Part shown: positions 15,827-39,322 of the stretch, piece after piece
Layout: each line of letters begins with the position of its first letter
Numbering within the stretch: the first letter of the stretch is position 1
IMG/VR virus record: IMGVR_UViG_3300028840_002452
Coordinates: 1 to 40,939 of that record
Origin: a virus
Length of the DNA stretch: 40,939 bases
Strand: one strand, 5' to 3'
Program-made: the position numbers and the translations under genes
The notes under the pieces: generated by a model
Databases searched by the model: none
Seen by the model: only the letters and a program-made list of their open reading frames with translations
What the model was told of the DNA's origin: nothing

Positions 15827-16827
15827 ATCCCGATGGTGGGGGCGACTATACAAGTTTGTTTGATTGTGAAGCAACAGAACAGCAAGATCTTACAGATAAT
15901 GGTGGGGATACATGGACATGCACTTGTGAAGCATCAAGCAATTCGGCTGATACAACCGCAGGGGTAAGATTTGTAGGATGGACTACAAGCGCAGATTACG
16001 ATATAACAATACAAGCTGGTAGCGGAGAAGAAGCAGTAAAGGATGCATGGAAAACTGATAGATACAGATTAGATGGTGCTGATGATGACATACTATCTCT
16101 TGAAGAAGATTATATAACACTTACAGGTTTGCAAATAGGAATGTCCTCTACAGGTGATAATTCGTTTTATGAATGTATACCTGTTTCAGGTCAAACAGCA
16201 ACGAATAATAAAGTTGTTATTGAAAAATGTAGAATATCAAAAAACTCTACTGGTAATACTACAAGATATGTCGGAATTGAATTTCAAGATGCAGATACAA
16301 TTGCAGATGTTTTTAATAATATTGTAGAAAATTTCGAGAGACGAGGATTAGAATGTTCTGGTTATACTACCCTTAAAATATATAATAATATTGTCTATGG
16401 AAGCACTACCACAGATGGAATATATATAAGTGGTGGGAGTGCAGGTGGTGCCACAGTAAAAAATAATGCAGTTTTCAATACTAATGATGATATAGATAAT
16501 AGAGATAGTGCAACAGTAGATTACAATGCAACTGATGATGGAGATGGGAACAACCCGATTTCTCCAAGTGGAGGCAGTTGGACAAATGAATTTACTGCCC
16601 CATCTACAGGGAATTGGACATTAGTAGCAAGCGGAAACTGTGATGATGGTGGGGTAGGGCCTTCTACAGATTCTACCGTACCGACAACTGATATGGAAGG
16701 TGATACAAGATCAGGAACGACATGTGATGTGGGAGTAGATGAAAATGCAGCAGCAGCACCTTCAGGACAACCAACATTCAAACGATTTGCAGGAACACCA
16801 CATACTACCACATATAGGAGGTGGTGA
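15802..16827 (+). CDS. Right-handed beta-helix tail spike/fibre-like protein (341 aa)
   Basis: The N-terminus AALTATVDPDGGGDYTSLFD is typical of pectate-lyase-like beta-helix proteins (first rung). Repeating strand-turn units follow: VVIEKCRISKNSTGNTTRYV, then DVFNNIVENFERRGLECSGY, then LKIYNNIVYGSTTTDGIYIS and ATVKNNAVFNT. Such domains bind or cleave surface glycans. TTG 15802 is the first possible start in the frame and sits just behind a G-rich site. The C-terminal ~22 residues (GQPTFKRFAGTPHTTTYRRW) recur in the 75-aa protein at 18123-18350, and the last codons double as the Shine-Dalgarno of the next gene. Confidence 0.65.
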   Translation: MAALTATVDPDGGGDYTSLFDCEATEQQDLTDNGGDTWTCTCEASSNSADTTAGVRFVGWTTSADYDITIQAGSGEEAVKDAWKTDRYRLDGADDDILSLEEDYITLTGLQIGMSSTGDNSFYECIPVSGQTATNNKVVIEKCRISKNSTGNTTRYVGIEFQDADTIADVFNNIVENFERRGLECSGYTTLKIYNNIVYGSTTTDGIYISGGSAGGATVKNNAVFNTNDDIDNRDSATVDYNATDDGDGNNPISPSGGSWTNEFTAPSTGNWTLVASGNCDDGGVGPSTDSTVPTTDMEGDTRSGTTCDVGVDENAAAAPSGQPTFKRFAGTPHTTTYRRW

Positions 16828-16830
16828 TAA

Positions 16831-18123
16831 ATGGCAACTACAGATGCATTTTATTATCCAAAATCAAATACAGCTTACAGGGTGTATTTTCCCATAGTTG
16901 ATGCAGACGGTGATCTTGTAGGTGATGCATCAGGACTTGATAGTGAAATAAGTATAGATGGTGCAACTATGGCAGACTGCACCAATGAAGCAACATGGAT
17001 AGCATCAAGTGCTGGTTCTTATTATTTAGAACTTACCGCTACAGAAATGAATAGTAGTTGTAGTATAGTTGAAGTGAACAGCACAAATGGGAAAGAAACT
17101 GTACTTGTATTTTATCCAATGGGAACCGATGATTATGGAAGCACTACAGGCGTTAATGTTGGTAGTGTACAAACAGCAGTGGATGCGATTAATGCTGGTC
17201 ATGCTCAGGCGTCCACACTTGATACAGTGCTTGCAGATACAACTCATATAGCGAGTATACAGTCTGCTGTCGATGATATATTAACAGACACAGCCGATAT
17301 ACAACCAGCATACGCACAAGCAAGTGTACTTACAACTGTATTGGCAGATACAACACACATTGCATCTATCCAAAGTGCCGTTGATGATATTCTTACCGAT
17401 ACGGCAGACATACAACCAGCATATGCACAAGCGAGCGTGCTGACAAATGTACTTGCCGATACCACTCATATTGCTTCTATACAATCGGCAGTCGATGACA
17501 TATTGACCGATACGGCAGATATACAAGCGAATTATGCACAAGCAAGTGCAGTTGCAACGGTCGATACACAGACAGATCCTGTTGCATCTATACAAACAGC
17601 AGTTGATGCAATAAATGATGGTCATGCACAGGCCAGTACACTCGATACGGTGCTTGCCGATACCACACACATTGCATCGATACAAAGTGCGGTGGATGAT
17701 ATACTCACCGACACAGCCGATATACAGCCGAACTATGCACAGGCTTCAACCGTTGCAGGAGTAGCACAGACGAGTACACTTACCACCGTACTTGCAGACA
17801 CTACTCATATTGCAAGCATACAGACAGCAGTGGATGCCATAAACGATGGGCACGCACAGGCCAGTGCATTACTTACGGCAGCAGCAGTGAAGGTACAGGT
17901 AGTAAGTGCGCTTGACTCAGATACATACGCAGAAGCATCAGGTGTACCTGGGGCGACAGCTTCTATCGTTGATAAACTTGGATTTATGGCAACGGCAATG
18001 AGAAACAAGATAGAAACAACAAGTGTATTGATAACTATATATGCTGACGATACCAGTACAACAGTTGTTACATCTACTATATCCGATGACGGAAACACAT
18101 TTACACGAGGTGAGTTTGCTTAA
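16831..18123 (+). CDS. Repetitive fibre protein A (430 aa)
   Basis: Three parts. Residues 1-100 are an N-terminal domain shared with the 416-aa paralogue at 18355 (YRVYFPIVDADGDLV; ISIDGATMADCTNEAT; LELTATEMNSSCSIV). Residues ~110-345 consist of 37-aa units with the core VLADTTHIASIQSAVDD then ILTDTADIQ, predicted to form a long trimeric coiled or triple-stranded shaft. The last ~75 residues (DTYAEASGVPGATASIVDKL; GFMATAMRNKI; STISDDGNTFTRGEFA) match a C-terminal region I recall from fibre-like proteins of other phages. Probably a receptor-facing fibre or whisker. Confidence 0.65.
   Translation: MATTDAFYYPKSNTAYRVYFPIVDADGDLVGDASGLDSEISIDGATMADCTNEATWIASSAGSYYLELTATEMNSSCSIVEVNSTNGKETVLVFYPMGTDDYGSTTGVNVGSVQTAVDAINAGHAQASTLDTVLADTTHIASIQSAVDDILTDTADIQPAYAQASVLTTVLADTTHIASIQSAVDDILTDTADIQPAYAQASVLTNVLADTTHIASIQSAVDDILTDTADIQANYAQASAVATVDTQTDPVASIQTAVDAINDGHAQASTLDTVLADTTHIASIQSAVDDILTDTADIQPNYAQASTVAGVAQTSTLTTVLADTTHIASIQTAVDAINDGHAQASALLTAAAVKVQVVSALDSDTYAEASGVPGATASIVDKLGFMATAMRNKIETTSVLITIYADDTSTTVVTSTISDDGNTFTRGEFA
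17227..17853 (+). repeat. Protein-level tandem repeats with scrambled codons
   Basis: Four units (cores at 17227-17304, 17338-17415, 17449-17526, 17650-17727) encode the same 26 residues. A fifth, partial unit starts at 17788. The first three are spaced exactly 111 bp. Between units one and two, 19 of 26 codons differ and all differences are synonymous, including AGT/TCT serine switches. Confidence 0.9.
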
Positions 18124-18350
18124 TGGCAGTTGACACAAGAAGCGAAAGACAATCGGTATCAATGTTTATGATGCCATTTTACCCTAAAGGTGTAAACCCT
18201 GGTACATCGGGAGTAGATCAGGCTGAACGACAAGACGCAACATGGTGCTATTATGGAATATTAGCAGGTGGTGTGGTTGCCCCAACAGGACAACCGTTTA
18301 TAAAACGATGGGGCGGCATAAAGCACACAATTACATATAGGAGGTGGTGA
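18123..18350 (+). CDS. Small fibre-cassette protein with YRRW tail (75 aa)
   Basis: The N-terminus MAVDTRSERQSVSMF is similar in plan to the 91-aa protein at 19605 (MAIDTLQKRFSIQT...YAGI). The C-terminus GQPFIKRWGGIKHTITYRRW matches the end of the beta-helix protein at 15802. The codons TAT AGG AGG TGG TGA supply both the C-terminal YRRW and the ribosome site of the next fibre gene. It overlaps fibre A by one base (TAATG). The function is unknown; it is probably a fibre connector or chaperone, or a linker module in a mobile fibre cassette. Confidence 0.55.
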   Translation: MAVDTRSERQSVSMFMMPFYPKGVNPGTSGVDQAERQDATWCYYGILAGGVVAPTGQPFIKRWGGIKHTITYRRW

Positions 18351-18354
18351 TACT

Positions 18355-19605
18355 ATGGCAGCAACAGATGCAACACCACATCCGGTCAAGAATCAAGCAT
18401 ATCGAGTATACTTTCCTATATTTGATAATGATGGTGATTTAGTGGCAGATGCGGCAAGTCTTGATAGTGAAATATCTATTGACGGTGCAACGGCAGCAGA
18501 TTGCACAAACGAAGCCACGCAGATAGAATCAAGCTGGGGCGTATACTATTTAGAACTCACCGCCACTGAAATGAACAGCAGCTGCTCTATCGTAAAAGTA
18601 AAATCATCTACCAGTGACAGCAAGGATACCGTACTCACATTATATCCGATAGAAGAGGGAGATTTTGGTAGCGCAACACACACAAAACTAAGCAGTGTAC
18701 AGACCGATATCGGAAACCTGAACGACATCACAGCAAATGCCGTCACCAATGACATCGACCAGAATAGTACACAGCTTGCATCGATTCTTGCAGACACCGC
18801 AGACATACAGGCTAATTATGCACAGGCCTCAGCGGTAACAACTGTTGATACACAAACAGATGCTATAGCATCGATACAGACAGCAGTAGATGCTATACAG
18901 ACAGTGACCGATAATCTACCGGATTCAGGTGCACTAACAACCATAAATGATTATGTGGATGGCATCCCTTCCGTACAAACTGCTGTAGATACAATACAAG
19001 CAAAGACAGACAATCTGCCCACAGATCCTGCTGATGATAGCGATATAGATGCTAAACTTGCATCGATACAGACTGATATAGGCAATCTGAATGACATTGC
19101 TGTTACGGATATATTGAGCGATTCAACCGCCTTTGCAGGGGCAAAGATTGCGAGCATACAAACCGATATAGGTGCATTGAATAATATAGCAGCTGTCGAT
19201 GTAACAAATCATATCGATGCGAACAGTACGCAGTTGGTATCGATACTTGCAGACACAGCCGATATACAACCGAATTATGCACAGGCAAGTGCAGTAACAG
19301 GAGTGCTTACTAAGACAACGAGCGTACAGACTGATATAGGGGCGCTGAATGATTTGAGTGCAGCACAGGTAAATGCTGAAGTAGTAGATGCATTGAATAC
19401 AGATACATACGCAGAAGCAAGTGCAGTACCTTCAGCGACAGCATCTATCACAGACAAAATAGGATTTATGGCAACCGCTATGAGAAACAAGATTACATCA
19501 ACCAGTGCGCTGATGTCTATATATGCCGATGATGGCAGTACAACGGTTGCAACGTCAACTATATCTGATGATGGTACAACGGCAACCAGAGGCGAGTTCA
19601 GTTAA
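18355..19605 (+). CDS. Repetitive fibre protein B, paralogue of A (416 aa)
   Basis: The N-terminal domain (YRVYFPIFDNDGDLVADAAS; ISIDGATAADCTNEAT) and C-terminal domain (DTYAEASAVPSATASITDKI; STISDDGTTATRGEFS) are close copies of fibre A. The shaft differs: it uses SIQTDIGNLNDI-type units, ILADTADIQANYAQASAV and Pro-containing TDNLPT turns rather than the 37-aa units. The two genes thus share ends and diverge in the middle, as expected from domain shuffling after duplication. It is preceded by the same AGGAGGTGG ribosome site embedded in the upstream YRRW codons. Confidence 0.65.
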   Translation: MAATDATPHPVKNQAYRVYFPIFDNDGDLVADAASLDSEISIDGATAADCTNEATQIESSWGVYYLELTATEMNSSCSIVKVKSSTSDSKDTVLTLYPIEEGDFGSATHTKLSSVQTDIGNLNDITANAVTNDIDQNSTQLASILADTADIQANYAQASAVTTVDTQTDAIASIQTAVDAIQTVTDNLPDSGALTTINDYVDGIPSVQTAVDTIQAKTDNLPTDPADDSDIDAKLASIQTDIGNLNDIAVTDILSDSTAFAGAKIASIQTDIGALNNIAAVDVTNHIDANSTQLVSILADTADIQPNYAQASAVTGVLTKTTSVQTDIGALNDLSAAQVNAEVVDALNTDTYAEASAVPSATASITDKIGFMATAMRNKITSTSALMSIYADDGSTTVATSTISDDGTTATRGEFS

Positions 19606-26337: not shown

Positions 26338-26619
26338 ATGGGCAGACGAAAGGGAGATACTTACACTATGCATAGGATAAGCTGTTTAGCATGTGGAAAC
26401 CTTATAATGTGTGGTAGAAACATTCAGAACAAGGTGCATGTAAAATGTGTAATGAATATGCTTGAGGATGGGCGATTGATAACATTGGATGATATAATAG
26501 AAAAAAAAGTAGATGCCGTACACGCCTGTACATTATTCGAAAATATGCGTGTATCAAAAGATATATCCTGGCTGAGATATATTGAAGAACTGAAAAGGAA
26601 TTACAGCTATGGAATATAA
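26338..26619 (+). CDS. Small Cys-rich protein (93 aa)
   Basis: N-terminal cysteines C16, C19, C25 and C37 (ISCLACGNLIMCGRN, VHVKCVMN) suggest zinc binding. The second half is helical and mixed charged. AAAGGAGA precedes ATG 26338. It overlaps the helicase-methyltransferase gene by 11 bp, so it may be a cofactor for it. Confidence 0.5.
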   Translation: MGRRKGDTYTMHRISCLACGNLIMCGRNIQNKVHVKCVMNMLEDGRLITLDDIIEKKVDAVHACTLFENMRVSKDISWLRYIEELKRNYSYGI

Positions 26620-28831
26620 AACATTTTTAGAGAAGAAAAAAATAATCGATGCTCCATCGGGATTACAAGACATACCACCACTGAATCCAATGTTATATGA
26701 TTTTCAAGGGGATATAGTAAAGTGGGCCTTGAGAAGAGGGCGAGCTGCTATATTTGCTGATTGTGGATTAGGGAAAACGCCGATGCAATTAGAATGGGCA
26801 AAGCATATTCCTGGCAATGTGCTTATTTTGGCGCCTTTGGCAGTATCGTCTCAAACAGTAAGAGAGGGAGAGAAATTCGGTATTGAAGTATTAAAAGCGC
26901 GTCATCAGGAAGATGTAAAAGGGAAAATAACAATAACAAATTATGAAATGTTACAGCACTTTAATACTAATCATTTTTCAGGTATAGTACTTGATGAATC
27001 ATCAATATTAAAAAGCTATACAGGAAAAATAAGAACGGCAATAATAAAGACATTTGAGAATACACCTTATCGTCTTGCGTGTACAGCAACGCCTGCACCA
27101 AATGATTATATGGAACTTGGTAATCATTCGGAATTTCTGGGAGTGTTAAATCGTACAGAGATGTTATCAATGTTTTTTGTACATGATGGAGGGGAAACAC
27201 AGAAATGGCGGCTAAAAGGGCATGCAGAAAGTGAATATTGGAAATGGCTATGTTCCTGGGCTGTAATGTTAAGAAAACCATCGGATTTAGGATATGACGA
27301 TGGGGATTTTATATTGCCAGAATTAAGAATACATCAAATAACAGTTAAAACAAATGAAACGGGTGAATATTTGTTTCCAATGGAGGCCTCTAATCTACAA
27401 GAACGAATAAAGGCACGCAAAAATAGTACATCAGAAAGGGTAAAAAAGTGTGCCGAAATAATAAATGGAAATAAAGAGCCTTGGCTATGCTGGTGTAATT
27501 TTAATATAGAAAGTGAAATGTTAAAGAACGAAATAGATAATGCAATAGAGATAAAAGGATCTGATCAAAATGAATACAAGGAAAAAATGATGCTTGCATT
27601 TTCATCGAAGGAAATAAATAGACTTGTAACCAAGCCATCCATTGCAGGATTTGGTATGAATTGGCAGCATTGTAATAATGTGGCTTTTGTTGGCCTATCA
27701 GATTCGTATGAACAATATTATCAGGCAATTCGAAGATGTTGGAGATTCGGACAAACAAAAGAAGTTAATTGTTATATTATTACGGCAGATACAGAGGGTG
27801 CAGTTGTAAAAAATATACAGCGAAAAGAGGAGGATGCACAACGAATGGCTGAAAACATGGTGGAGCATATGCATGAACTGAATAAAGAAAACATCAAAGG
27901 AACAGAACGAACAGAAAATATATATAAAACAAAAAAGGAAAATGGAGAAAACTGGACTGTGTACCTTGGAGATGCTGTTGAGATATGTAAGGATATTAAT
28001 AGTAACAGTATACATTATAGTGTGTTTTCCCCTCCCTTCGCATCTCTTTACACTTATTCAAACAGCGAGAGAGACATGGGAAATTGCAAAGATAATATAG
28101 AGTTTATGGAACACTTTCAATATTTGGTTAAAGAATTATATCGAGTTATTATGCCAGGTCGATTGGTTTCATTTCATTGTATGAATCTTCCAACAAGTAA
28201 AGTAAGAAATGGATATATCGGACTCGTGGATTTCAGGGGTGAATTAATAAGAGCTTTTCAGAAAGAAGGATTTATATATGCGAGTGAAGTATGCATTTGG
28301 AAAAACCCAGTAACTGCAATGCAACGTACTAAAGCAAAAGGATTATTGCATAAACAAATAGTAAAAGATAGTGCAGCTTGTAGACAGGGAATACCAGATT
28401 ATCTTGTAACAATGAAAAAACCAGGAGAAAATCCAGAACCGATTGCAGGGGAATTAAATCATTTCGAGGGCGATCAATCTACATTTGAAAGAACAGGCAG
28501 ACTTAGTATTGATATATGGCAGCGATATGCTTCACCAATATGGATGGATATTAATCCAAGTAACACACTTCAAAAAACATCGGCAAGAGAAGAGAAAGAC
28601 GAACGGCACATAGCACCATTGCAATTAGAAGTAATACATCGTGCATTGCAATTATGGACAAATGAGAATGATATTGTATTGAGTCCTTTCGCTGGTATTG
28701 GAAGCGAAGGTTATGAGGCATTAAAAATGAATCGGCGATTTATCGGTATTGAATTAAAAGAAGGATATTATATACAGGCAGTGGCGAATCTGAAAAAAGT
28801 AGAAACAATGAAAGGAGGGCTATTTGACTGA
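26609..28831 (+). CDS. SNF2-type helicase fused to DNA methyltransferase (740 aa)
   Basis: Residues 20-400 are a superfamily 2 helicase: DCGLGKT (51-57), LDESS (D129, E130), CTATPAPND (158-165), and motif VI QAIRRCWRFGQ (372-382). Residues 446-740 are a beta-class N4/N6 adenine- or cytosine-amino methyltransferase: motif IV SPPF (474-477), a target-recognition stretch, then the SAM motif LSPFAGIGSEGYEAL (F694, G696, G698). The order IV before I marks the beta class. It could methylate phage DNA against host restriction while translocating, or edit replication forks. There is no endonuclease domain or partner nuclease next to it, so it is not a classic restriction system. Confidence 0.85.
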   Translation: MEYKTFLEKKKIIDAPSGLQDIPPLNPMLYDFQGDIVKWALRRGRAAIFADCGLGKTPMQLEWAKHIPGNVLILAPLAVSSQTVREGEKFGIEVLKARHQEDVKGKITITNYEMLQHFNTNHFSGIVLDESSILKSYTGKIRTAIIKTFENTPYRLACTATPAPNDYMELGNHSEFLGVLNRTEMLSMFFVHDGGETQKWRLKGHAESEYWKWLCSWAVMLRKPSDLGYDDGDFILPELRIHQITVKTNETGEYLFPMEASNLQERIKARKNSTSERVKKCAEIINGNKEPWLCWCNFNIESEMLKNEIDNAIEIKGSDQNEYKEKMMLAFSSKEINRLVTKPSIAGFGMNWQHCNNVAFVGLSDSYEQYYQAIRRCWRFGQTKEVNCYIITADTEGAVVKNIQRKEEDAQRMAENMVEHMHELNKENIKGTERTENIYKTKKENGENWTVYLGDAVEICKDINSNSIHYSVFSPPFASLYTYSNSERDMGNCKDNIEFMEHFQYLVKELYRVIMPGRLVSFHCMNLPTSKVRNGYIGLVDFRGELIRAFQKEGFIYASEVCIWKNPVTAMQRTKAKGLLHKQIVKDSAACRQGIPDYLVTMKKPGENPEPIAGELNHFEGDQSTFERTGRLSIDIWQRYASPIWMDINPSNTLQKTSAREEKDERHIAPLQLEVIHRALQLWTNENDIVLSPFAGIGSEGYEALKMNRRFIGIELKEGYYIQAVANLKKVETMKGGLFD

Positions 28832-29674: not shown

Positions 29675-30879
29675 CTCGATTACGATATACAGAAAAGCAA
29701 AGTGATGCATACTGGCTCATACATGATAGCGGTGCAACGAATATACTTTTATACGGTGGTGCACGTTCAGGTAAAAGCGTTATACTCGCATCGATGATAA
29801 TAAAGTGGAGCCTGGATTATTCCGGATTACGTTCTCTAATAGCACGTTTACGGTTCAGTCATGCTAAAACAACTATATGGCATCAAACAATAAGAGATAT
29901 AATGAAAAGTGTGCCGATGACTCAGTGGAAGGAAAACAAAGCAGATCACTATATAGAATTTAGTAATGGAAGCGAGATATGGCTTGGCGGCTTTGATGAA
30001 CGTGAACGTATAGAAAAGATATTAGGCTCAGAGTTTAACGTGGTATATCTCAATGAAGTATCGCAGCTTGATTATACGGTTGTAGAGATGACATTGCCCA
30101 GACTTGCGAAGAAAACCGAAGGGTTTATGAATATAGCATTATTCGATTGTAATCCTCCTTCACCTCTTCACTGGTCACATAGAGTATTTATCGAGAAAAT
30201 AAATCCATATACATTGAAGCCGATTGAACGACCTGAGTTATATGCATCGATGAAAATGAATCCGATAGATAATGTTTCTAATCTACCGGATCATTATATA
30301 GAGAATAACCTCGAGACATTGGCAGATAGAGCCAGGCGCAGATTTCTTGATGGCGAGTTTGTTAAAGCGGAGGGTACAATCTATGAAGAATTCGATGAAT
30401 CCTATGTACTTAAGAAAGAAGAGCTGCCTGAAATGGAACGATATAGTGTGGGTGTCGATTTTGGCCTTAATTGCGCTGCCGTTCTTATTGGTTGGAGCGG
30501 TGATAATATTTACGTTCTTGGTGATTACGGCAATTTTAATATCACCGCTAATACTCTCAATGATGCTATCAGGGAGCGATGGCAAGATAAAACATATATT
30601 GCATGGTGTGATCCAAGCGGTGGCGAGCGCATACAGGAGATTACTTTTGGCGACAAAGCGAACAACAGTGTGGAGCCGGGAATAGACGCTATAAACGATA
30701 AGATTCACAATAATCAATTCTACATAGTGGAGGGCTGTAATGGCGTGCTATCAGAGATATGGGATTATCGGCGTGACGACAAAGAGCGGATAATAAAATT
30801 GAATGACCACTACATGGATGCAATGCGATATGGCATATTCAGTGAGATAGCAGAACCAGTACAGATATTTATTGCATGA
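29671..30879 (+). CDS. terL: Terminase large subunit (402 aa)
   Basis: Packaging motor: ATPase motifs GGARSGKS (29-36, Walker A) and VVYLNEVSQ (124-132, Walker B with E129), a coupling-like LFDCNPPSP (157-165), then the nuclease domain VGVDFG (D263), AWCDPSGGE (D314) and DHYMDAMRYG (D379, D383). It is slightly short for the class. Together with the small subunit it lies 8.9 kb upstream of the portal gene, although the two are commonly close. Confidence 0.9.
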   Translation: MTRLRYTEKQSDAYWLIHDSGATNILLYGGARSGKSVILASMIIKWSLDYSGLRSLIARLRFSHAKTTIWHQTIRDIMKSVPMTQWKENKADHYIEFSNGSEIWLGGFDERERIEKILGSEFNVVYLNEVSQLDYTVVEMTLPRLAKKTEGFMNIALFDCNPPSPLHWSHRVFIEKINPYTLKPIERPELYASMKMNPIDNVSNLPDHYIENNLETLADRARRRFLDGEFVKAEGTIYEEFDESYVLKKEELPEMERYSVGVDFGLNCAAVLIGWSGDNIYVLGDYGNFNITANTLNDAIRERWQDKTYIAWCDPSGGERIQEITFGDKANNSVEPGIDAINDKIHNNQFYIVEGCNGVLSEIWDYRRDDKERIIKLNDHYMDAMRYGIFSEIAEPVQIFIA

Positions 30880-31430
30880 ACTACAGCGATTGCACACATC
30901 TTAATGAACCACCAAAGCCTGAAGGGTTTATAGATAGATATGTAGATTATCTGTGTGGGCAGTTTGGATTATGGACAGCAGGAAAGCTACTCGATGTAGG
31001 CTGTGGAAATGGTGAATATGTAGATGCATTTAAACGTGCAGGGAAAGATGCCAAAGGAATCGACAAATACAGCTATTACGATATAAACGGCGATATAGAA
31101 TTAATGACTACAAATCGATACGGATTTTACGATGTCGTGCATAGTAAAAGCGTAATAGAGCATTGCCGTTATCCAATGAACGCAATAGAGAATATGTGGC
31201 ATCTATGCGAGCCAGGCGGTATATGCATAATACTCACACCAGATATCGAATACAGCAAATGGAGCTTCTATGGCGATATCGGGCATGTATCACCGTTTAA
31301 TCGCAACAAACTATATCAGCTATTCGCATACGCTGATTTCAAAGATATATCGGTAGAGCGATTTACACATTGGCCTCATGGATGGAAAAAACCATTAAAA
31401 GGAATGTTGATAGGAAAGGGGAAAAAATGA
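30876..31430 (+). CDS. Class I SAM-dependent methyltransferase (184 aa)
   Basis: Motif I LLDVGCGNGEYVDAFKRAGK and a following acidic GID, then VVHSKSVIEHCRYPMNAIEN (motif IV/V region) and PGGICIILTPD (motif VI), the standard Rossmann fold order. The substrate is unknown; the type resembles small-molecule or sugar methyltransferases found with glycan genes. It overlaps terL by 4 bp. Proximity to the glycosylation-like genes at 37.1-39.3 kb suggests a glycan or lipid target, but DNA is not excluded. Confidence 0.8.
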   Translation: MNYSDCTHLNEPPKPEGFIDRYVDYLCGQFGLWTAGKLLDVGCGNGEYVDAFKRAGKDAKGIDKYSYYDINGDIELMTTNRYGFYDVVHSKSVIEHCRYPMNAIENMWHLCEPGGICIILTPDIEYSKWSFYGDIGHVSPFNRNKLYQLFAYADFKDISVERFTHWPHGWKKPLKGMLIGKGKK

Positions 31431-31666: not shown

Positions 31667-32485
31667 ATGAAACGAGTATGGATTATTGCGGTATTGGTGT
31701 TGTTTTGTGCAGCACCGCTTATGGCTGCTGATTTTACTGGCAGCTTCGAGTATGAAACCACTTTCGGTAAACGAGTGGAAAGTGGTGACGGATTCGGCAC
31801 ACTTGACCTTGATATCGATGCAGAAGTAGATGAACACAATACTTTGTCTCTATCAATGACAGGTGATGTCGGCAGCGATGTGAATATCGATGAAGTATAC
31901 CTAACAACGGTATATGGAATATTCACTGGCGAACTTGGCAACGTTTCATTTGATAGCAATGATTATAGCGTTACATCAGAAGGCCTCGAATTGCAGGATG
32001 CAGGAATCGATGTGAGCGGTATAACTGGCGCTATTGAGTGGAACGGGTTAAGTGTGAAAGCTGGTACAGCATTACAGCCGAATGCAGATTACGGATTTGC
32101 TGTAGGGTACAGCAAAGAGTTTCTCGATAAGATTGAAGTAGGTTATTTCAAGGGCGGCGTAATAACAGCAAATGCAAAGGTTGTGATATCACGTTTTAGT
32201 GTCGGTGGCGGTCTGGTATACGATGACGATGTAACATTTGGCGGTGGTGCTAAAGTAGACCTTGCACCTGTATGGGTAGCAGCTGGCGTGAACAGTGATA
32301 GAGAGTTTTGTGGAGATGTCGGTGTAGAGTATGACATATTCGGTGCAGAAGTAGACTTGCTCTATACCGATGCTTTCATGATCGATGAAGCAGCAGCATG
32401 GGTAGCCCCGGGGGGAGTAACGTATAAAGGCGGTTACAGGTTCAGGGACAGAGATGTATTTGTAAATGTCAGTGCAGAATTCTAA
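31667..32485 (+). CDS. Outer-membrane porin-like beta-barrel (272 aa)
   Basis: A signal peptide (MKRVWIIAVLVLFCAAPLMA, cleavage before ADF) is followed by alternating amphipathic beta strands (FTGSFEYETTFGKRVESGDG; NTLSLSMTGDVGSDVNIDEV; YGFAVGYSKEFLDKIEVGYF). The end DVFVNVSAEF closes with Phe, the BAM-recognition rule for outer-membrane proteins. It would form a diffusion channel in a diderm host. Its location directly upstream of a sugar-binding protein suggests it admits the same solute. Shine-Dalgarno AGGAGG is 6-7 nt before ATG. Alternatively it could be a receptor-masking or lysis-related barrel. Confidence 0.7.
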   Translation: MKRVWIIAVLVLFCAAPLMAADFTGSFEYETTFGKRVESGDGFGTLDLDIDAEVDEHNTLSLSMTGDVGSDVNIDEVYLTTVYGIFTGELGNVSFDSNDYSVTSEGLELQDAGIDVSGITGAIEWNGLSVKAGTALQPNADYGFAVGYSKEFLDKIEVGYFKGGVITANAKVVISRFSVGGGLVYDDDVTFGGGAKVDLAPVWVAAGVNSDREFCGDVGVEYDIFGAEVDLLYTDAFMIDEAAAWVAPGGVTYKGGYRFRDRDVFVNVSAEF

Positions 32486-32501
32486 CATATGAGGAGGGAC
32501 A

Positions 32502-33746
32502 ATGAGAAAGTTATGGTTTATTGCGTTATGTTGTTTGATAGTGCCGTTTATGTTATATGGCGGTGAGAAAACATCGGAAATCGAAAACATCATTATACTG
32601 AAATCACCAGGTGATGATACGGCAGTCAATATGGCGATTGATAGATTTACCGATGAATTTGGTGTAGATGTAGAAGTAATCGATGCCGATATATCAACAG
32701 GTTCTACAATCACGATTGATACAATGATTGCAGCAGGAGAAGCACCTGATATATACATGGATTATCTTGCACGCACAGGAAAGTTCATAGATCCTGCATA
32801 TGCAATACCGCTTGATGATTATGTTGATATGTCTGCTTTCAACGAATCGATGATGGGACAGTTCAAGCGAGGCGGTAAGTATTATGCGATTATGCGACCG
32901 ACAGGGGCTATGGGGATGTTTGTTAATCTCGATGTGCTTGAGGAGGCTGGCATAGCTGAAAGCGATATACCCGACAACTGGACAACAGATGATTTTGTAG
33001 CAATGGCTGAGAAGGTAAAAGCGGTCGGTAAATATGCTACAGTTCTATTTGCCGCTAATCAGAGTGGCGATTACTTTTACATGAATTATTTTGCATCATT
33101 CGGTGCAGACCTGTACAATGAGGATTATTCAGAATCAACAGCAGATTCACCAGAAGGACTTGCAGCATTGCAGTTTCTGAATATGCTTGTGGAAAAGGGA
33201 TATGCACCACGAGAATCGGCGGTATATACTGATGATGATTACCTCGCAGAACTTGGAATGGGCAGTTGCGCTGTTGGTGGTCTGTTTATCGGTCACCTTG
33301 GCATACTTAGTTCTATGGTGGAACAAGGGGCCATAGATGCAATGCCCAGATATAAGTTTGTATCATTTCCTAACAATGCAGCAGCCTGTTCTATGCCTCA
33401 TGCTGTTGTAGGTTATAATTCGGGTGATGAGTATCGTAATGAACTTGTCGCCACGCTTATGACTTACATCGAAAGCAAAGAAGCACAGACAGATCACCTG
33501 ATTGCAAATGGCACTTACTCCACTCGTAATGATGTGACAGCAGAACAAGACAGCGATGACTGGCGTGCCATAAAAGCGATAGTGGAAGCAAACGGGCTTT
33601 ACGATTTAGGCCTTGCGCATCCAGCGTATGGCGAAATACGAAAGCAGATGTTTCCACTATTGCAGGAAATGTACGCAGGGAAACTTTCACCAGAAGATGC
33701 AATCAAGATGTACGATGAAGCCGTTACTGCTATATTGCAGGAATGA
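32502..33746 (+). CDS. Periplasmic solute-binding protein of a sugar-type ABC importer (414 aa)
   Basis: Signal peptide MRKLWFIALCCLIVPFMLYG (no proper lipobox: the CC pair is too early), then the family 1 solute-binding fold: ENIIILKSPGDDTAVNMAID, FTDEFGVDVEVIDADIS, then AAGEAPDIYMDYLARTGKFI and IMRPTGAMGMFVNLDVLEEA with the typical NLDVLEEAG..E.P.NWTTDDF helix pattern. The C-terminal part has KEAQTDHLIANGTYSTRNDV and SPEDAIKMYDEAVTAI, usual for CUT1 binding proteins. It would capture an oligosaccharide or polyol and deliver it to the permeases downstream. No ATPase is encoded anywhere in the window. GAGGAGGGA is the ribosome site. Confidence 0.85.
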   Translation: MRKLWFIALCCLIVPFMLYGGEKTSEIENIIILKSPGDDTAVNMAIDRFTDEFGVDVEVIDADISTGSTITIDTMIAAGEAPDIYMDYLARTGKFIDPAYAIPLDDYVDMSAFNESMMGQFKRGGKYYAIMRPTGAMGMFVNLDVLEEAGIAESDIPDNWTTDDFVAMAEKVKAVGKYATVLFAANQSGDYFYMNYFASFGADLYNEDYSESTADSPEGLAALQFLNMLVEKGYAPRESAVYTDDDYLAELGMGSCAVGGLFIGHLGILSSMVEQGAIDAMPRYKFVSFPNNAAACSMPHAVVGYNSGDEYRNELVATLMTYIESKEAQTDHLIANGTYSTRNDVTAEQDSDDWRAIKAIVEANGLYDLGLAHPAYGEIRKQMFPLLQEMYAGKLSPEDAIKMYDEAVTAILQE

Positions 33747-33781
33747 ACCGTTCCTTGGTGGGCGGTGTAGTTGCTGCTCAA

Positions 33782-33821
33782 AAGTACCTCTTTGCTGACA
33801 AGTACCTAATAAGCGGTACTT
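33782..33821 (+). promoter_or_regulatory. Competing stem-loop in the transporter intergenic region
   Basis: AAGTACC occurs twice (33782-33788 and 33800-33806) and each can pair with GGTACTT (33815-33821). Pairing of the nearer copy gives a 7-bp stem with an 8-nt loop. The two alternatives could form a simple RNA switch or a processing site. The gap 33747-33854 contains no convincing gene; this is its only structure that I could see. Confidence 0.45.
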
Positions 33822-33854
33822 CATGGGATAAGCCCTGATAGGCAATGAGGTCGT

Positions 33855-33942
33855 GGCACAGTGGCGGAATAGGTAGACGCAGGAAAACGCCAAGCGTGAC
33901 CGTAGGTACCTACATGCAGGGTGCAAATCCCTGCCTGTGCCA
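33855..33942 (+). tRNA. tRNA-like element (class II fold, non-canonical anticodon arm)
   Basis: Acceptor stem GGCACAG (33855-33861)/CTGTGCC (33935-33941) is perfect, with discriminator A 33942. The D-arm TGGCGGAATAGGTAGACGC is a textbook tRNA-Leu-type D-arm. A long variable arm GTAGGTACCTAC (33902-33913) and a T-arm CAGGG-TGCAAAT-CCCTG follow. The anticodon segment (33881-33901) cannot form a 5-bp stem with a 7-nt loop; instead ACGC-CAA-GCGT forms a short hairpin. The T-loop starts TGC rather than TTC. No CCA is encoded. It is therefore a decayed or specialised tRNA-like RNA, not an ordinary tRNA. It ends exactly one base before the permease ATG (33943). Confidence 0.5.
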
Positions 33943-34797
33943 ATGCTTTTTTCTTCCAGATCGGGGGGCAGGGTTTTCTATCTCCTTTTCCCTGCCCTCG
34001 TTTTATTCGTTCTTTTTACTGTCTTACCGATTATTTATGTAGTGCAGCTTAGTTTATACAAAACGAATTTTGTACATACAACATTTGTTGGAATAAAGAA
34101 CTATGTCAAAGTCTTTCAAGACAAGGACTTCATCAGACATTTGGTTAACAGTTTTGGATATACTGGTTTCCTCATTCTTGGTTGGACTTTCCTTCCTCTT
34201 GGTATTGGACTTATTGCTTACGATTTTGGCAGAATATGGCAAAGTTATATCAGGTTTATCTTTTATGTGCCAGTATTTGCATCTGGAGTGATTATCAGTA
34301 CAGTATGGTTATATATCCTGCATCCTACAAATGGACTTGCGAACTGGCTAATAGGCCAATTGGGAGTTACACCACGATTATGGTTAGGGGAACGACTACT
34401 GGCTATTTCGACATTATCGACAATGTTAATAACCAGTTACATGGGCTTTTATGTTCTGGTTTACATGGCAGCAATATTAAGCATACCAAAAAGCATAATA
34501 GAAGCAGCAAGAGTAGACGGTGCAACTAAATGGCAAATAAAAATGCGAGTGATAGTACCGATGATAATGCCAACCGTTTTATTTATATCTCTACTGACAA
34601 TGATAGCATCGTTGCAGATATGGGAAACCATATTCATTATGAATCCAACAAGCCAAAGTTACAATATTATGTTTTCTGTATTCGACTCCGCATTTTTAAG
34701 CAGCAAATACGGTTTTGCATCAGCAAAGACACTACTCTTAGTGTTACTGATATTAAGTCTATCTATCGGCAGACGCTATCTTGAAAGGAGAATGTAA
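33943..34797 (+). CDS. ABC sugar permease 1, MalF/UgpA-like (284 aa)
   Basis: About six transmembrane segments, starting VFYLLFPALVLFVLFTVLPI, and the EAA loop IEAARVDGATKWQIKMRVIV (about 186-205) that docks the ATPase. This is the MalF/UgpA type of CUT1 permease, without the extra N-terminal helices of MalF. ATG 33943 directly follows the tRNA-like element and has no Shine-Dalgarno; GTG 33937 is two codons earlier and lies inside the element. Either the mRNA is leaderless after 3' processing of the tRNA-like RNA, or this N-terminus was created by a recombination junction. It overlaps the next gene (TAATG). Confidence 0.85.
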   Translation: MLFSSRSGGRVFYLLFPALVLFVLFTVLPIIYVVQLSLYKTNFVHTTFVGIKNYVKVFQDKDFIRHLVNSFGYTGFLILGWTFLPLGIGLIAYDFGRIWQSYIRFIFYVPVFASGVIISTVWLYILHPTNGLANWLIGQLGVTPRLWLGERLLAISTLSTMLITSYMGFYVLVYMAAILSIPKSIIEAARVDGATKWQIKMRVIVPMIMPTVLFISLLTMIASLQIWETIFIMNPTSQSYNIMFSVFDSAFLSSKYGFASAKTLLLVLLILSLSIGRRYLERRM

Positions 34798-35042
34798 TGG
34801 GATGGATAGAAGATGCGATAAACAAAGAAAGTAAATGGACGGCAAAGGGTATATGGTATAAAGACAAATTGTTTATATCATTTGATAACATAGTAGAATT
34901 AATAGATGCTGAATATCAATATGTTACCGATATATATGAAATAGAAAAAATCTCTGAAGAAGGAGCTATGGGTGCCATAGGTGCACTTACAGATATAAAA
35001 CAAACTTTAACTGGTTATTTGAAAAAAATAATTAAAAAATGA
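34797..35042 (+). CDS. Small protein between permease genes (81 aa)
   Basis: MGWIEDAINKESKWTAKGIW, then an acidic helical stretch DAEYQYVTDIYEIEKISEEG and the Gly/Ala-rich AMGAIGALTDIKQTLTGYLK. Soluble, with no signal. It is translationally coupled to both permeases (TAATG and ATGA overlaps), so it is made with them. It could be an assembly or regulatory factor for the transporter. I know of no such gene in bacterial CUT1 operons. Confidence 0.6.
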   Translation: MGWIEDAINKESKWTAKGIWYKDKLFISFDNIVELIDAEYQYVTDIYEIEKISEEGAMGAIGALTDIKQTLTGYLKKIIKK

Positions 35043-35848
35043 AATATGCTATCATCGTTCTATGCTCATTGATATTGATATTCCCACTATATCTTATGTT
35101 TATCGGTAGTTTTCAGAACATAGTGGGTTTGATGAAAATGCCACCTAATATGTGGCCAAAGAAACCAACATGGGACAATTACAAAAATCTATTGACAGGT
35201 ATACCGCTGCTCCGGTGGTTGCTGAATACGATAATAATTTCGTTCAGCACCGTAATCCTAACGGTTATAGTGACGTTTATGGCTGGTTTTGCCATGACCC
35301 GAATACAGGGCAAGTTAAAACATTTAATATATCTGATCTTTCTTATCCCCATAATGATACCAAGACAAACTTTGCTATTACCCCTGTATGTGACCGTGAA
35401 GAGATTACAATTCCCATCTATGGTTGCTACGATATTCCCTGCGGTGTTTTATCCTGTAGGGGTTTTCTTATGCATGAATTATATAGAGACTATACCAACG
35501 GAACTTATAGACGCAGCAAGAATCGACGGCGCAGGAAACTTAAAAATTATATTCAGAGTGGTTGTCCCTCTTTCAAAACCCATACTTGCTTGTATAGGGA
35601 TATTTTCTTTCATCGGTATTTTGGGCGATTATGTTTGGCAATATTTACTGCTGCGGAGTGAAGAGCAGCGTACATTGCTTGTCGGGTTAATTGGTGCAGT
35701 GCTAAAGGAGGGACGGCATTTCACACAATTAAACCCGATAGGCTTACAATTAACAGCAGGGGTAATACTGTTTATGCCCTTGCTGATAGTGTTTATATCG
35801 TTTCAGAAATACTTTCAAAGCGGATTAACATTAGGGGGGATACGATGA
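35039..35848 (+). CDS. ABC sugar permease 2, MalG/UgpE-like (269 aa)
   Basis: Six transmembrane segments from MKYAIIVLCSLILIFPLYLM onward; the EAA loop DAARIDGAGNLKIIFRVVVP (158-177) is intact. The end GLTLGGIR is the conserved GxxxGaVKG-like terminus of MalG-type proteins, here shortened. It pairs with permease 1 to form the transmembrane pore. It overlaps both neighbours by 4 bp. The missing ATPase would be supplied by a host multitask subunit (UgpC/MsmK type). Confidence 0.9.
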   Translation: MKYAIIVLCSLILIFPLYLMFIGSFQNIVGLMKMPPNMWPKKPTWDNYKNLLTGIPLLRWLLNTIIISFSTVILTVIVTFMAGFAMTRIQGKLKHLIYLIFLIPIMIPRQTLLLPLYVTVKRLQFPSMVATIFPAVFYPVGVFLCMNYIETIPTELIDAARIDGAGNLKIIFRVVVPLSKPILACIGIFSFIGILGDYVWQYLLLRSEEQRTLLVGLIGAVLKEGRHFTQLNPIGLQLTAGVILFMPLLIVFISFQKYFQSGLTLGGIR

Positions 35849-36039
35849 TAGCAGACTTTACGCCTTGGTGGGAAGATGTGTGGGAGTGGTTGATGGGATA
35901 CTTACATACGATGGGGTATACAAGGGCTGAGATAGCCCTGAGATGCAGGAATGACTTTAATCCGAACAAAGAAGATATGGAAGAATGGAAAAGAGAGCAT
36001 CCCGAAGAGTGGGAAAAAATAAAGAGGGAAAATCCATGA
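35845..36039 (+). CDS. Small Trp-rich acidic protein (64 aa)
   Basis: MIADFTPWWEDVWEWLMGYL, then helical EMEEWKREHPEEWEKIK-like charge clusters. Seven or more Trp in 64 residues is unusual. ATGA overlap with permease 2 shows operon membership. Amphipathic helix binding to a membrane or the permease is possible. No family recognised. Confidence 0.5.
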   Translation: MIADFTPWWEDVWEWLMGYLHTMGYTRAEIALRCRNDFNPNKEDMEEWKREHPEEWEKIKRENP

Positions 36040-36464
36040 AACTATGGCAATTTGTTACAATATGTGTAGTAGCTTTCTGGTTATTGCTCTTTGGTTATTG
36101 GCGAGTAGCAGAGCCAGCAGAATTACATGGTGATGCATCTATTGGTTACGATATAGAAAAGGATTTAACCTTTACAACAGTTGAATTGAATTATGAGTTT
36201 GATATATGGAAGCTGAATAATTATATGTGGATTGGTGCAGATACATATTTTATAACAAGTGATTTTATACCTAAAGCAATGACAAGGGCAGTGTTCCCGA
36301 TAGGTTATAAGATAGCATATAAATCAGTGTTTCTACAAATAGAACATTTCTGCACACATTCATTTTATCGAGAAGTACAGGGCTATAAATGGAGCAATGA
36401 ACATCTGGAACATTATAATTGGAATTCAAGCGGTACTAAAATATCAGCAGGAGTGCAATGGTGA
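36036..36464 (+). CDS. Small outer-membrane beta-barrel-like protein (142 aa)
   Basis: ATG 36036 is selected by GAGGG upstream. The signal/anchor is MKLWQFVTICVVAFWLLLFG, followed by beta strands (DASIGYDIEKDLTFTTVELN; YMWIGADTYFITSDFIP; AVFPIGYKIAYKSVFLQIEH) and a C-terminal SSGTKISAGVQW ending in an aromatic residue, as in outer-membrane barrels of the OmpX/PagP size. The His-containing FLQIEHFCTHSFYR could be an active or metal site. A second outer-membrane factor in one phage is notable. Confidence 0.5.
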   Translation: MKLWQFVTICVVAFWLLLFGYWRVAEPAELHGDASIGYDIEKDLTFTTVELNYEFDIWKLNNYMWIGADTYFITSDFIPKAMTRAVFPIGYKIAYKSVFLQIEHFCTHSFYREVQGYKWSNEHLEHYNWNSSGTKISAGVQW

Positions 36465-36882: not shown

Positions 36883-37193
36883 AAAAGGTACAATTAGAAT
36901 TATCGATGGATGAATTGTTAACTATTATATTCGGTTTACGCAAGGCGATATTTTATACAGAGTTTTTAGATCCTACATATTATCGATACATGGAAATGCC
37001 AGATAAAAAAGAACACTTAGATTCCTATAGGCGCATATTGCTAAAGTTTGTACATCTCGATTGTATGATGACAAATGAATATGATGAATTATTAGGAACA
37101 GATATGGCAGATTTTTATCATGTTCTAAATGCTGAAATCGTGGAGAGGCCTGATGAAGATGATAATGACAACAATGGCAAGGGCAAACAGTGA
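36879..37193 (+). CDS. Hypothetical protein (104 aa)
   Basis: Helical: QLELSMDELLTIIFGLRKAI, then DSYRRILLKFVHLDCMMTNE, and a polar acidic tail EDDNDNNGKGKQ. It overlaps the NeuA-like gene by 41 bp. No family recognised. Confidence 0.5.
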   Translation: MKKVQLELSMDELLTIIFGLRKAIFYTEFLDPTYYRYMEMPDKKEHLDSYRRILLKFVHLDCMMTNEYDELLGTDMADFYHVLNAEIVERPDEDDNDNNGKGKQ

Positions 37194-37950
37194 ACGGTTG
37201 CCGGGAAAAAATACTCGTATGTTTTGTGGCAAGCCGTTATTGGAATGGACGTTATTATGTGGGCATTTAGCAGAATCGATTACAGATATATATGCCACAG
37301 TAGATTCGATTGAATTGGCAAGAATAGTAGAGAAATACGGCACACCTATATTTCAGCCAGAGAAATCAACACATTTTGGAATGTGGGGAGGTCCTGTTGC
37401 AGATGGATATTTATTCAGCTATTTCATTAAACATGGATTAAAATTAGGACATAGAATGACATCATTGCCGACAGCACCATTAAAAAGGCCATGTGACTTT
37501 GACAATGCCACAAGAGCATATGAAGAACTTATAAAACTGCATGGGGGATATGATTTAGAATTAGTAGACCAGGCACCTATGGGTAATGTGTCTATATCAA
37601 TAGATGCTGGTAATTTTGTCATTAAACAAACTGTATCGGCACATAAAGATAAATTGCTTTATCATCCAGGTGCCCTTGGTGTACAGGATATGGAATGGTG
37701 GATAAAAAAATATGGTTATGCGGATTATATATTTGAAGATTATGAAAAAGGAATTATCAAGAAAGAAATAGATGATGGTACAGCAGACTTATCAGTAATA
37801 GATATAGCAAAGCACTGTTGGGTAAGCGATGTAGTATATTACTATCAAATGCCAGTATGGGCAGCAAGGGACATCGATGATATATATGAATGGGAATATT
37901 GCGAATGGGCGTTTGAAAAATACATACTAAACGAGGGATATTATGGCTGA
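37153..37950 (+). CDS. CMP-sugar synthetase / cytidylyltransferase, NeuA-like (265 aa)
   Basis: The nucleotide-binding motif is close to the N-terminus: MARANSERLPGKNTRMFCGK, the family R-x-(G)S-x-R-L-P-x-K-N loop, then PLLEWTLLCGHLAESITDIY and ATVDSIELARIVEKYG (VSTDDEEIA-type segment). Such enzymes activate sialic, legionaminic or pseudaminic acid or Kdo with CTP. GGAGAGG selects ATG 37153. The C-terminal half is more diverged than usual and lacks an obvious phosphatase domain. It is adjacent to a MAF-like protein, the usual user of CMP-nonulosonates in flagellin glycosylation. Confidence 0.65.
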   Translation: MKMIMTTMARANSERLPGKNTRMFCGKPLLEWTLLCGHLAESITDIYATVDSIELARIVEKYGTPIFQPEKSTHFGMWGGPVADGYLFSYFIKHGLKLGHRMTSLPTAPLKRPCDFDNATRAYEELIKLHGGYDLELVDQAPMGNVSISIDAGNFVIKQTVSAHKDKLLYHPGALGVQDMEWWIKKYGYADYIFEDYEKGIIKKEIDDGTADLSVIDIAKHCWVSDVVYYYQMPVWAARDIDDIYEWEYCEWAFEKYILNEGYYG

Positions 37951-39322
37951 ACAAGATTTTGGTAAAATGACAGAAGAAGTAAATACAGAAGTACGCAAGG
38001 GATATCAGGAATATATGGATTCATTGCCTGATGAAGTAAAAACTGAAATGAACTTGAAGCAATCAGTGAAAGATTACAACGAATCTACTAAAAAGGTGAT
38101 ATTGCCAATAGAGATTAAACACAGCTACTACAATCACAAGCGTATATGGAAAGATATAAACGAAACGCACAAAGGATTTGATCTTGGCAGTGTAGAATTT
38201 TCTAAAAGCAACGGGCCGGCCCTCATTGTAGGCAGTGGACAAAGCCTTGATAAAGCAGGGCCGTTATTGAAAAACTGGCAAGGGGCGATATTTTGCAGCA
38301 CATCGCAAGCTTCTACATTATGTTATTATGATAGGCCACCAGAATACATTGTAGCACTTGACCCTCGTCTTGCAGTAAGCGAACTATCATATATCGATAC
38401 ATGGGACAATAAAGATAGTATATTGATAGCACATCCATGTATATCTCCTGTAGTATTGGATTTCTGGCCTAATAAGATTTTCTATTATCGCATAATGGAG
38501 CCTACATCTAATTTCTATACTGAAACGCTTGCACAGTCATATGATTTTATATCATTGTATCTATTTCTGTTTTCATGTGCTATCGCAGGGCAGCTGGGGC
38601 TTGCAAAGGTAATGGGCTATGATCCGCTGTACCTGGTAGGATGTGACTTTGGGGCACCGAATGATATATATCGATATACCAGCTATCGATGGAAAACAGC
38701 AAGCATGAAAGGGCTGTATCCTACAAAGAATGAAAATGGTCAGGATATATGGCGAATGGATACGTTTACGCTTGACAAAGTACCACAGGATTTTCAGCTG
38801 ATAAAACGCAATCTTGAAATAGAAGAACTAAAGCCGTCACCGCTTGCCAAAGAACGTGAAGTGATATGTAATAACGGCGTGAAATCAGATGCGATACAGG
38901 TATATTATAAACGGAGTGTTATGTGTGTAGCACGTCTTGATATGTCGAATATAATCAACACGTCTACCGAAGGAATAATAACAGAGTTTCCAGAAGCGAC
39001 AATTGAAGAAGTAATAGAGAAACAGGGGCGAGGGTTTAGTGATCGATATTTCACGACAGCACAGAAACGAAAATCATATGATGAATATCTTGCAACGCAG
39101 AATACATTTGTAATCGAGTTCAAAGACGGCTCGTTGCGATATATAGAATCCAAAAACCCACTTGTAGAAATGCCAGTATTCCTGAAGGGCATGGAACAGC
39201 ACTATAAAGCAAGCGGCAGAAAGCCTGAAGAATATATAGATACAAAAAAAATAATGAGCAGAGTAAAAGCATTATTAAAGAAAGCGGAGGCAAAACGTGA
39301 AAAGATACAAACTGATAGGTGA
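37943..39322 (+). CDS. DUF115/MAF-like (motility accessory factor, MptE-like) protein (459 aa)
   Basis: The DUF115 signature reads PALIVGSGQSLDKAGPLLKN (motif GSGxSLD), followed by AIFCSTSQASTLCYYDRPPE and YIVALDPRLAVSELSYI (PDYIVALDP-type motif), then YDPLYLVGCDFG (GxDFG). In Campylobacter-type bacteria, MAF proteins transfer nonulosonates to flagellin; archaeal MptE uses the same fold for pterin pyrophosphorylation. Adjacency to the NeuA-like gene favours the glycosyltransferase reading. Phage relatives have been annotated only as DUF115 in my knowledge. It overlaps the cytidylyltransferase by 8 bp. Confidence 0.65.
   Translation: MAEQDFGKMTEEVNTEVRKGYQEYMDSLPDEVKTEMNLKQSVKDYNESTKKVILPIEIKHSYYNHKRIWKDINETHKGFDLGSVEFSKSNGPALIVGSGQSLDKAGPLLKNWQGAIFCSTSQASTLCYYDRPPEYIVALDPRLAVSELSYIDTWDNKDSILIAHPCISPVVLDFWPNKIFYYRIMEPTSNFYTETLAQSYDFISLYLFLFSCAIAGQLGLAKVMGYDPLYLVGCDFGAPNDIYRYTSYRWKTASMKGLYPTKNENGQDIWRMDTFTLDKVPQDFQLIKRNLEIEELKPSPLAKEREVICNNGVKSDAIQVYYKRSVMCVARLDMSNIINTSTEGIITEFPEATIEEVIEKQGRGFSDRYFTTAQKRKSYDEYLATQNTFVIEFKDGSLRYIESKNPLVEMPVFLKGMEQHYKASGRKPEEYIDTKKIMSRVKALLKKAEAKREKIQTDR

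Follow-up and report, generated by a model that had tools for sequence, protein, structure and literature searches.

Six phage sequences carry a five-gene cassette that encodes, in the same order and on the same strand, a solute-binding protein (SBP), two permeases (P1 and P2), a NeuA-like CMP-sugar synthetase and a Maf-like (DUF115) transferase. One is the window analysed here, the whole of IMG/VR record IMGVR_UViG_3300028840_002452 (40,939 nt), and the others are five further phage contigs (L001/L121, L122, L126, L331 and L336). The cassette probably constitutes a scavenging and glycosylation pathway, which would import a nonulosonic acid, activate it with CMP and transfer it to an acceptor on the virion or the host surface; the exact substrate, the docking to a host ATPase, the catalysis and the acceptor are what we infer. 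A literature search of partial coverage returned no import-activate-transfer cassette in phages, and the arrangement is likely new to the literature.

The cassette in a complete phage genome

The window bears an exact 144-nt direct terminal repeat and is therefore taken to be a complete phage genome of ~40.8 kb. Among its products are a PBSX-like terminase, a major head protein, a head morphogenesis protein, a tape measure protein, a Phage_portal protein and an ERF recombinase. The cassette is part of the late region, with the terminase on one side and the portal on the other. The original prediction described an importer directly after the terminase genes and ending at 35848. The order of the genes is as described, but a methyltransferase gene and short ORFs intervene before the porin-like ORF, and the functional unit reaches past 35848, to 39322. 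The region contains the following features:

30876-31430: methyltransferase gene, with short ORFs, between the terminase and the porin-like ORF
31667..32485, + strand: porin-like secreted beta-rich protein, 272 aa, with a signal peptide and a C-terminal F
32502..33746, + strand: CUT1-type extracellular SBP, 414 aa (PF01547, PF13416)
33937-34797, + strand: P1, MalF/UgpA-like permease (PF00528)
34797..35042, + strand: 81-aa ORF without a match, lying between the permeases; unsure whether part of the unit
35039-35848, + strand: P2, MalG/UgpE-like permease (PF00528)
35985..36464, + strand: small beta-rich protein with a signal peptide, described from sequence features; membership of the unit unsure
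37129..37950, + strand: CMP-nonulosonate synthetase-like (NeuA/PseF type) cytidylyltransferase (PF02348, CTP_transf_3)
37943..39322, + strand: Maf/MptE-like putative CMP-sugar glycosyltransferase, 459 aa (PF01973)

The SBP matched PF01547 (82.6 bits, cut-off 26; 6.5e-23) and PF13416 (3.5e-22), and its PDB matches are CUT1 sugar SBPs; it is a family-1 type solute-binding protein of a CUT1 ABC importer. P1, whose start may be the ATG at 33943, and P2 matched PF00528 with 51.6 bits (1.3e-13) and 64.4 bits (1.4e-17), respectively (cut-off 26.4). Both are BPD_transp_1 permease subunits whose EAA-type loops, EAARVDGATKWQIKMRVIVPMIMP and DAARIDGAGNLKIIFRVVVPLSKP, are intact and kept across the aligned phages. 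These matches confirm the CUT1-type SBP and paired permeases that had been predicted. The importer genes had also been described as largely overlapping on one strand; they are co-directional, but overlap is confined to P1, the 81-aa ORF and P2, and a gap of ~190 nt separates the SBP from P1. The 81-aa ORF has no homologue in L001, L122 or L126, and the protein at 35985..36464 matched no family. An AlphaFold model of the SBP (pLDDT 52) was too poor for its ligand pocket to be read.

Going by its signal peptide and C-terminal F, the porin-like ORF is a possible outer-membrane channel, the barrel being putative. It matched no Pfam family and no PDB structure, had no convincing spirochaete match, and gave a fold model too poor for fold analysis (pLDDT 27). 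A homologue occupies the same position in L001 (29–33% identity), and in L336 the SBP is preceded by a similar beta-rich secreted protein; the gene is missing from L126 and was not seen in L122, and the L331 record starts at the SBP.

Within the SBP-P1 gap, positions 33855-33942 resemble a tRNA-Leu with good acceptor and T stems and a broken anticodon arm, and the terminal CCA abuts the in-frame ATG 33943 of P1. This element had no Rfam match and was not called as a gene by ARAGORN at default settings; relaxed ARAGORN gave only low-scoring, inconsistent calls. The SBP-P1 gap of L001 holds an HNH endonuclease (16688-17089), and in L122 and L126 the SBP and P1 genes overlap, leaving no gap. Elsewhere in the window, 16831-19605 encodes a pair of long proteins rich in internal repeats, probable fibres and paralogues of each other that share ~70% DNA identity in parts, and 26609-28831 encodes a fusion of helicase and methyltransferase, relatives of which occur in at least 74 viral contigs (38–66% identity). 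An anti-phage defence library gave no match.

The synthetase-like protein matched PF02348 (8.2e-7), and a profile of the phage family matched NeuA structures at 6.4e-24; KdsB structures were far weaker in an earlier profile. It shares with the NeuA/PseF CMP-nonulosonate synthetases a CTP_transf_3 fold, the N-terminal R-x2-S-x-R-x3-KN signature, which is kept in four phages, and a C-terminal DID motif. However, the phage proteins are divergent and fall well below the NCBIfam equivalog cut-offs (34.4 bits for the window protein and 99 bits for those of L331 and L336, against 205.7 bits for PseF).

The Maf-like protein matched PF01973 (56.7 bits, 3.4e-15; gathering score 34.6), and its profile matched the Maf structure 5mu5 (5.5e-6) and, weakly, the CstII sialyltransferase (0.024), in alignments that match up the GSGPSLD and G-x-DF motifs. 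In these respects it resembles the Maf/PseD flagellin nonulosonate transferases and GT42 CstII. The central domain of Maf, pfam01973, is itself reported to resemble CstII, and Maf enzymes accept CMP-activated nonulosonates (PMC11339370). In contrast to cellular Maf proteins of 530–660 aa, those of the phages are ~450 aa long and lack the extra flanking domains; against the full-length Maf architecture (NF050051, cut-off 670 bits) the window protein scored 23.5 bits, in the central domain only. The isolated-phage collection held no match to the Maf-like protein.

Conservation among phages

Identity between the cassettes of different phages is ~30–40%. Pairwise permease identities are 29–41%, except for L122 and L331, at 65–70%; P2 homologues are 38–41% identical in L001 and L122 and 39% in L126. 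These relatives came from profile searches, single sequences being insufficient: the SBP or P2 searched singly against viral contigs, and the SBP against genome contigs, returned nothing. Matches to the permeases and SBP in the isolated-phage collection were set aside; they are mostly unannotated fragments of 22–33% identity that bear names such as Listeria phage, and they probably represent bacterial DNA in phage preparations.

L001/L121 (41,491 nt) comes from another metagenome, and its terminase is 59% identical to that of the window. Its genes run terminase, porin-like, FAD-oxidoreductase, SBP, permeases, synthetase, Maf-like, portal, matching the order in the window; the FAD_oxidored gene (PF12831; L001:13130-14431), inside the cassette, was seen in this phage only. 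The neighbours of the cassette vary, from a PBSX-like terminase and Phage_portal in the window to Terminase_3 in L126 and, in L336, Terminase_6N with Head-tail_con and GP7 capsid. In L122, an intein-like insertion (CFIPDTLMQGQITCGSRLKYAG...) lies at ~10700-11242 in a head-morphogenesis or portal fusion protein.

Between L122 and L331, dN/dS was ~0.08–0.13 for all five genes (0.085 for the SBP), values that are rough because dS is near saturation but that indicate purifying selection. The original prediction had named inactivating mutations in all relatives as a finding that would speak against it, and none was common to the cassette-bearing phages; the SBP and permeases that it described in one phage recur in five others, within the five-gene cassette.

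Maf-like genes also occur in other phage contigs. L335 (9971-14282) has one next to genes for PseB-like (287 bits) and PseC-like (186 bits) proteins, as if biosynthesis replaced import there and offered an alternative sugar supply to the same transferase family. Lone Maf/MptE-like genes lie in the structural modules of L332, L333 and L334, with no importer or synthetase within the stretch read, and those of L333 and L334 are flanked by tail-type genes. In phage contig L337 (9776-18184), a Maf-like gene adjoins PseB/PseC-like or other nucleotide-sugar genes.

Likely hosts, the missing ATPase and sialic-acid operons

No ABC ATPase (PF00005) was found anywhere in the window, so that the absence noted in the original prediction holds across the full record. 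PF00005 was likewise missing from all six cassette records, several of which are fragments, and none of them has a dedicated MalK-type ATPase. When a terminase profile was searched against 85,000 species genomes, it gave 56 loci, nearly all in Treponema and other Spirochaetota, and full-length relatives were 45–52% identical; the cassette was absent from these loci within the stretch covered. Because their terminase relatives lie in Spirochaetota, the window and L001 lineages probably infect spirochaetes, a call limited to these two, as L122, L126, L331 and L336 have other terminases. Phages of spirochaetes are poorly studied, and a survey of 38 Treponema prophages makes no mention of sugar, sialic acid or ABC transporters (PMC11144348).

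Exactly one OB_MalK ATPase was present in 38 of 80 Spirochaetota genomes sampled, and these 38 genomes have a median of 6 SBP_bac_1 proteins (range 2–24). Since one MalK-type ATPase often serves many importers, the absence of an ATPase from the phage would be ordinary in spirochaete hosts. The idea that phage-encoded specificity parts join a CUT1 ATPase shared by the host's importers thus finds a suitable genomic setting, the docking itself being a predicted step. There is a bacterial counterpart: the sialic-acid importer SatABC of Streptococcus pneumoniae draws its energy from the shared ATPase MsmK (PMC4519317). It too consists of an SBP and two permeases without an ATPase of their own, and sialic acid is the kind of substrate that we propose for the phages. 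SatABC is bacterial and catabolic, however, whereas the phage cassette adds CMP activation and transfer.

The closest cellular relatives of the phage permeases belong to spirochaete nan operons with the same SBP-P1-P2 order (L245, L246, L305-L307 and L310-L312). The phage permeases form one clade (100/99 for P1, 100/99 for P2, 100/100 concatenated). In concatenated trees, phage and nan-operon importers together stood apart from the remaining CUT1 permeases of spirochaetes (32 or 23 of them), at 99/97 and, with six phages included, at 98/97; in P1-alone trees, they grouped at 97/85 in one and weakly, at 65/60, in the other. The concatenated trees support kinship between phage and nan-operon transporters among spirochaete relatives, which are what the trees cover.

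These sister operons encode a NanR-like GntR regulator, SBP, P1, P2, an N-acetylneuraminate-lyase-like protein (NF003164, 233 bits, below the cut-off of 281) and an N-acylglucosamine 2-epimerase (309 and 317 bits). A NanA-like lyase adjoins 8 of the 11 sister loci (three lack it) and none of 32 control loci (Fisher p 1e-6), a count that is not fully independent, since the first three sisters, two with the lyase, came from a phage-only profile and the other eight from a profile including those three, and since the controls, some on short contigs, were chosen by the same kind of search. As in the phages, no CUT1 ATPase lies beside the permeases in the nan operons examined. The operons carry genes for degradation (lyase, epimerase and NanR-like regulator), whereas the phages carry the synthetase and Maf-like transferase, and neither NanA lyase nor epimerase was found in the phage stretches examined. 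This lack of the catabolic enzymes argues against feeding and supports an anabolic, glycosylating role. The SBP is only ~24% identical to its cellular relatives, and its ligand specificity may, judging from this divergence, have changed.

Among spirochaete SBP relatives, L267-L271 lack a permease gene next to them and give no clue to a substrate. Those of L267, L270 and L271 adjoin a ~700-aa membrane sensor-like protein, perhaps pointing to a use in sensing.

Proposed pathway and its alternatives

The linkage of the two downstream genes to the importer in six phages, together with the sialic-acid character of the nearest cellular importers, points to scavenging for glycosylation. In the pathway that we propose, a nonulosonic acid (a sialic-acid-like sugar) would cross the outer membrane, possibly through the phage porin-like protein, and be captured in the periplasm by the phage SBP. 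Import through P1 and P2 would draw on the MalK/UgpC-type ATPase shared by the host's importers, and the NeuA/PseF-like enzyme would turn the acid into a CMP-sugar. The Maf-like transferase would then attach the sugar to its target. This would most likely be a virion protein, given the late position of the cassette between terminase and portal, and otherwise a host surface structure. We suggest only tentatively the more specific reading that spirochaete phages import sialic acid or another nonulosonic acid through their own host-powered importer and glycosylate their own virions. If it is true, part of the viral coat would consist of sugar taken from the surroundings of the cell, perhaps for camouflage or mucus binding.

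The transport genes known from phages are for the most part single components that aid the nutrition of the host. Those reported for phosphate and glycerol-phosphate transport (pstS, pstABC, ugpE and others; PMC10987575) are, like the cassette, phage-borne parts of ABC importers, but they serve phosphorus acquisition and are not tied to sugar activation and transfer. A cassette common to unrelated phage structural types would show phage specificity components at work in a shared host ATPase and feeding glycosylation. It would also tie environmental sialic acid to host transport machinery and to phage or host surface glycans, a link that is testable.

The same pathway could instead place the CMP-sugar on host flagellin or a surface glycan, altering the phage receptor and excluding superinfection. 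Maf proteins normally modify flagellin (PMC11339370), long Maf-type relatives are present in spirochaete genomes, and phage-encoded nonulosonate-modifying enzymes that alter the host capsule have been reported in Acinetobacter (PMC12053666). We nevertheless consider a host target rather unlikely, given that the cassette sits in the late structural region, that the lone Maf-like genes of L333 and L334 lie between tail-type genes, and that the phage proteins are without the additional domains of cellular Maf. A nutritional role, with the carbohydrate as a carbon or energy source and the two downstream genes as unrelated neighbours, appears improbable. CUT1 importers are usually catabolic, as are the sister operons with their NanA and epimerase, but in six phages, whose structural modules differ, the importer is always accompanied by the synthetase and Maf-like genes, and the degradative enzymes were not found in the phage stretches examined. 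Of the original proposal that a new sugar is brought into infected cells, import is thus retained, and the auxiliary, carbon-source part is judged less likely.

Hijacking or blocking of host uptake had also been proposed. ATPase-less permeases could titrate away the ATPase that the host's importers share and so stop sugar uptake by the host, and the lack of an ATPase in six records, in hosts that often have a single shared one, would fit. We regard this as very unlikely: titration needs neither a conserved SBP, here under purifying selection, nor linked CMP-sugar genes, and the cellular nan operons examined share the lack of a CUT1 ATPase near their permeases. The chance that the region is an assembly chimera or a recent passive pick-up of host DNA, for which a slight composition shift over the SBP (GC up to 0.46) might speak, is negligible. 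The genome is complete with its terminal repeat, the permeases form a deep phage-only clade, and independent relatives refute a chimera: L001, which comes from a different metagenome, carries the block at the corresponding position, and four more contigs have it as well.
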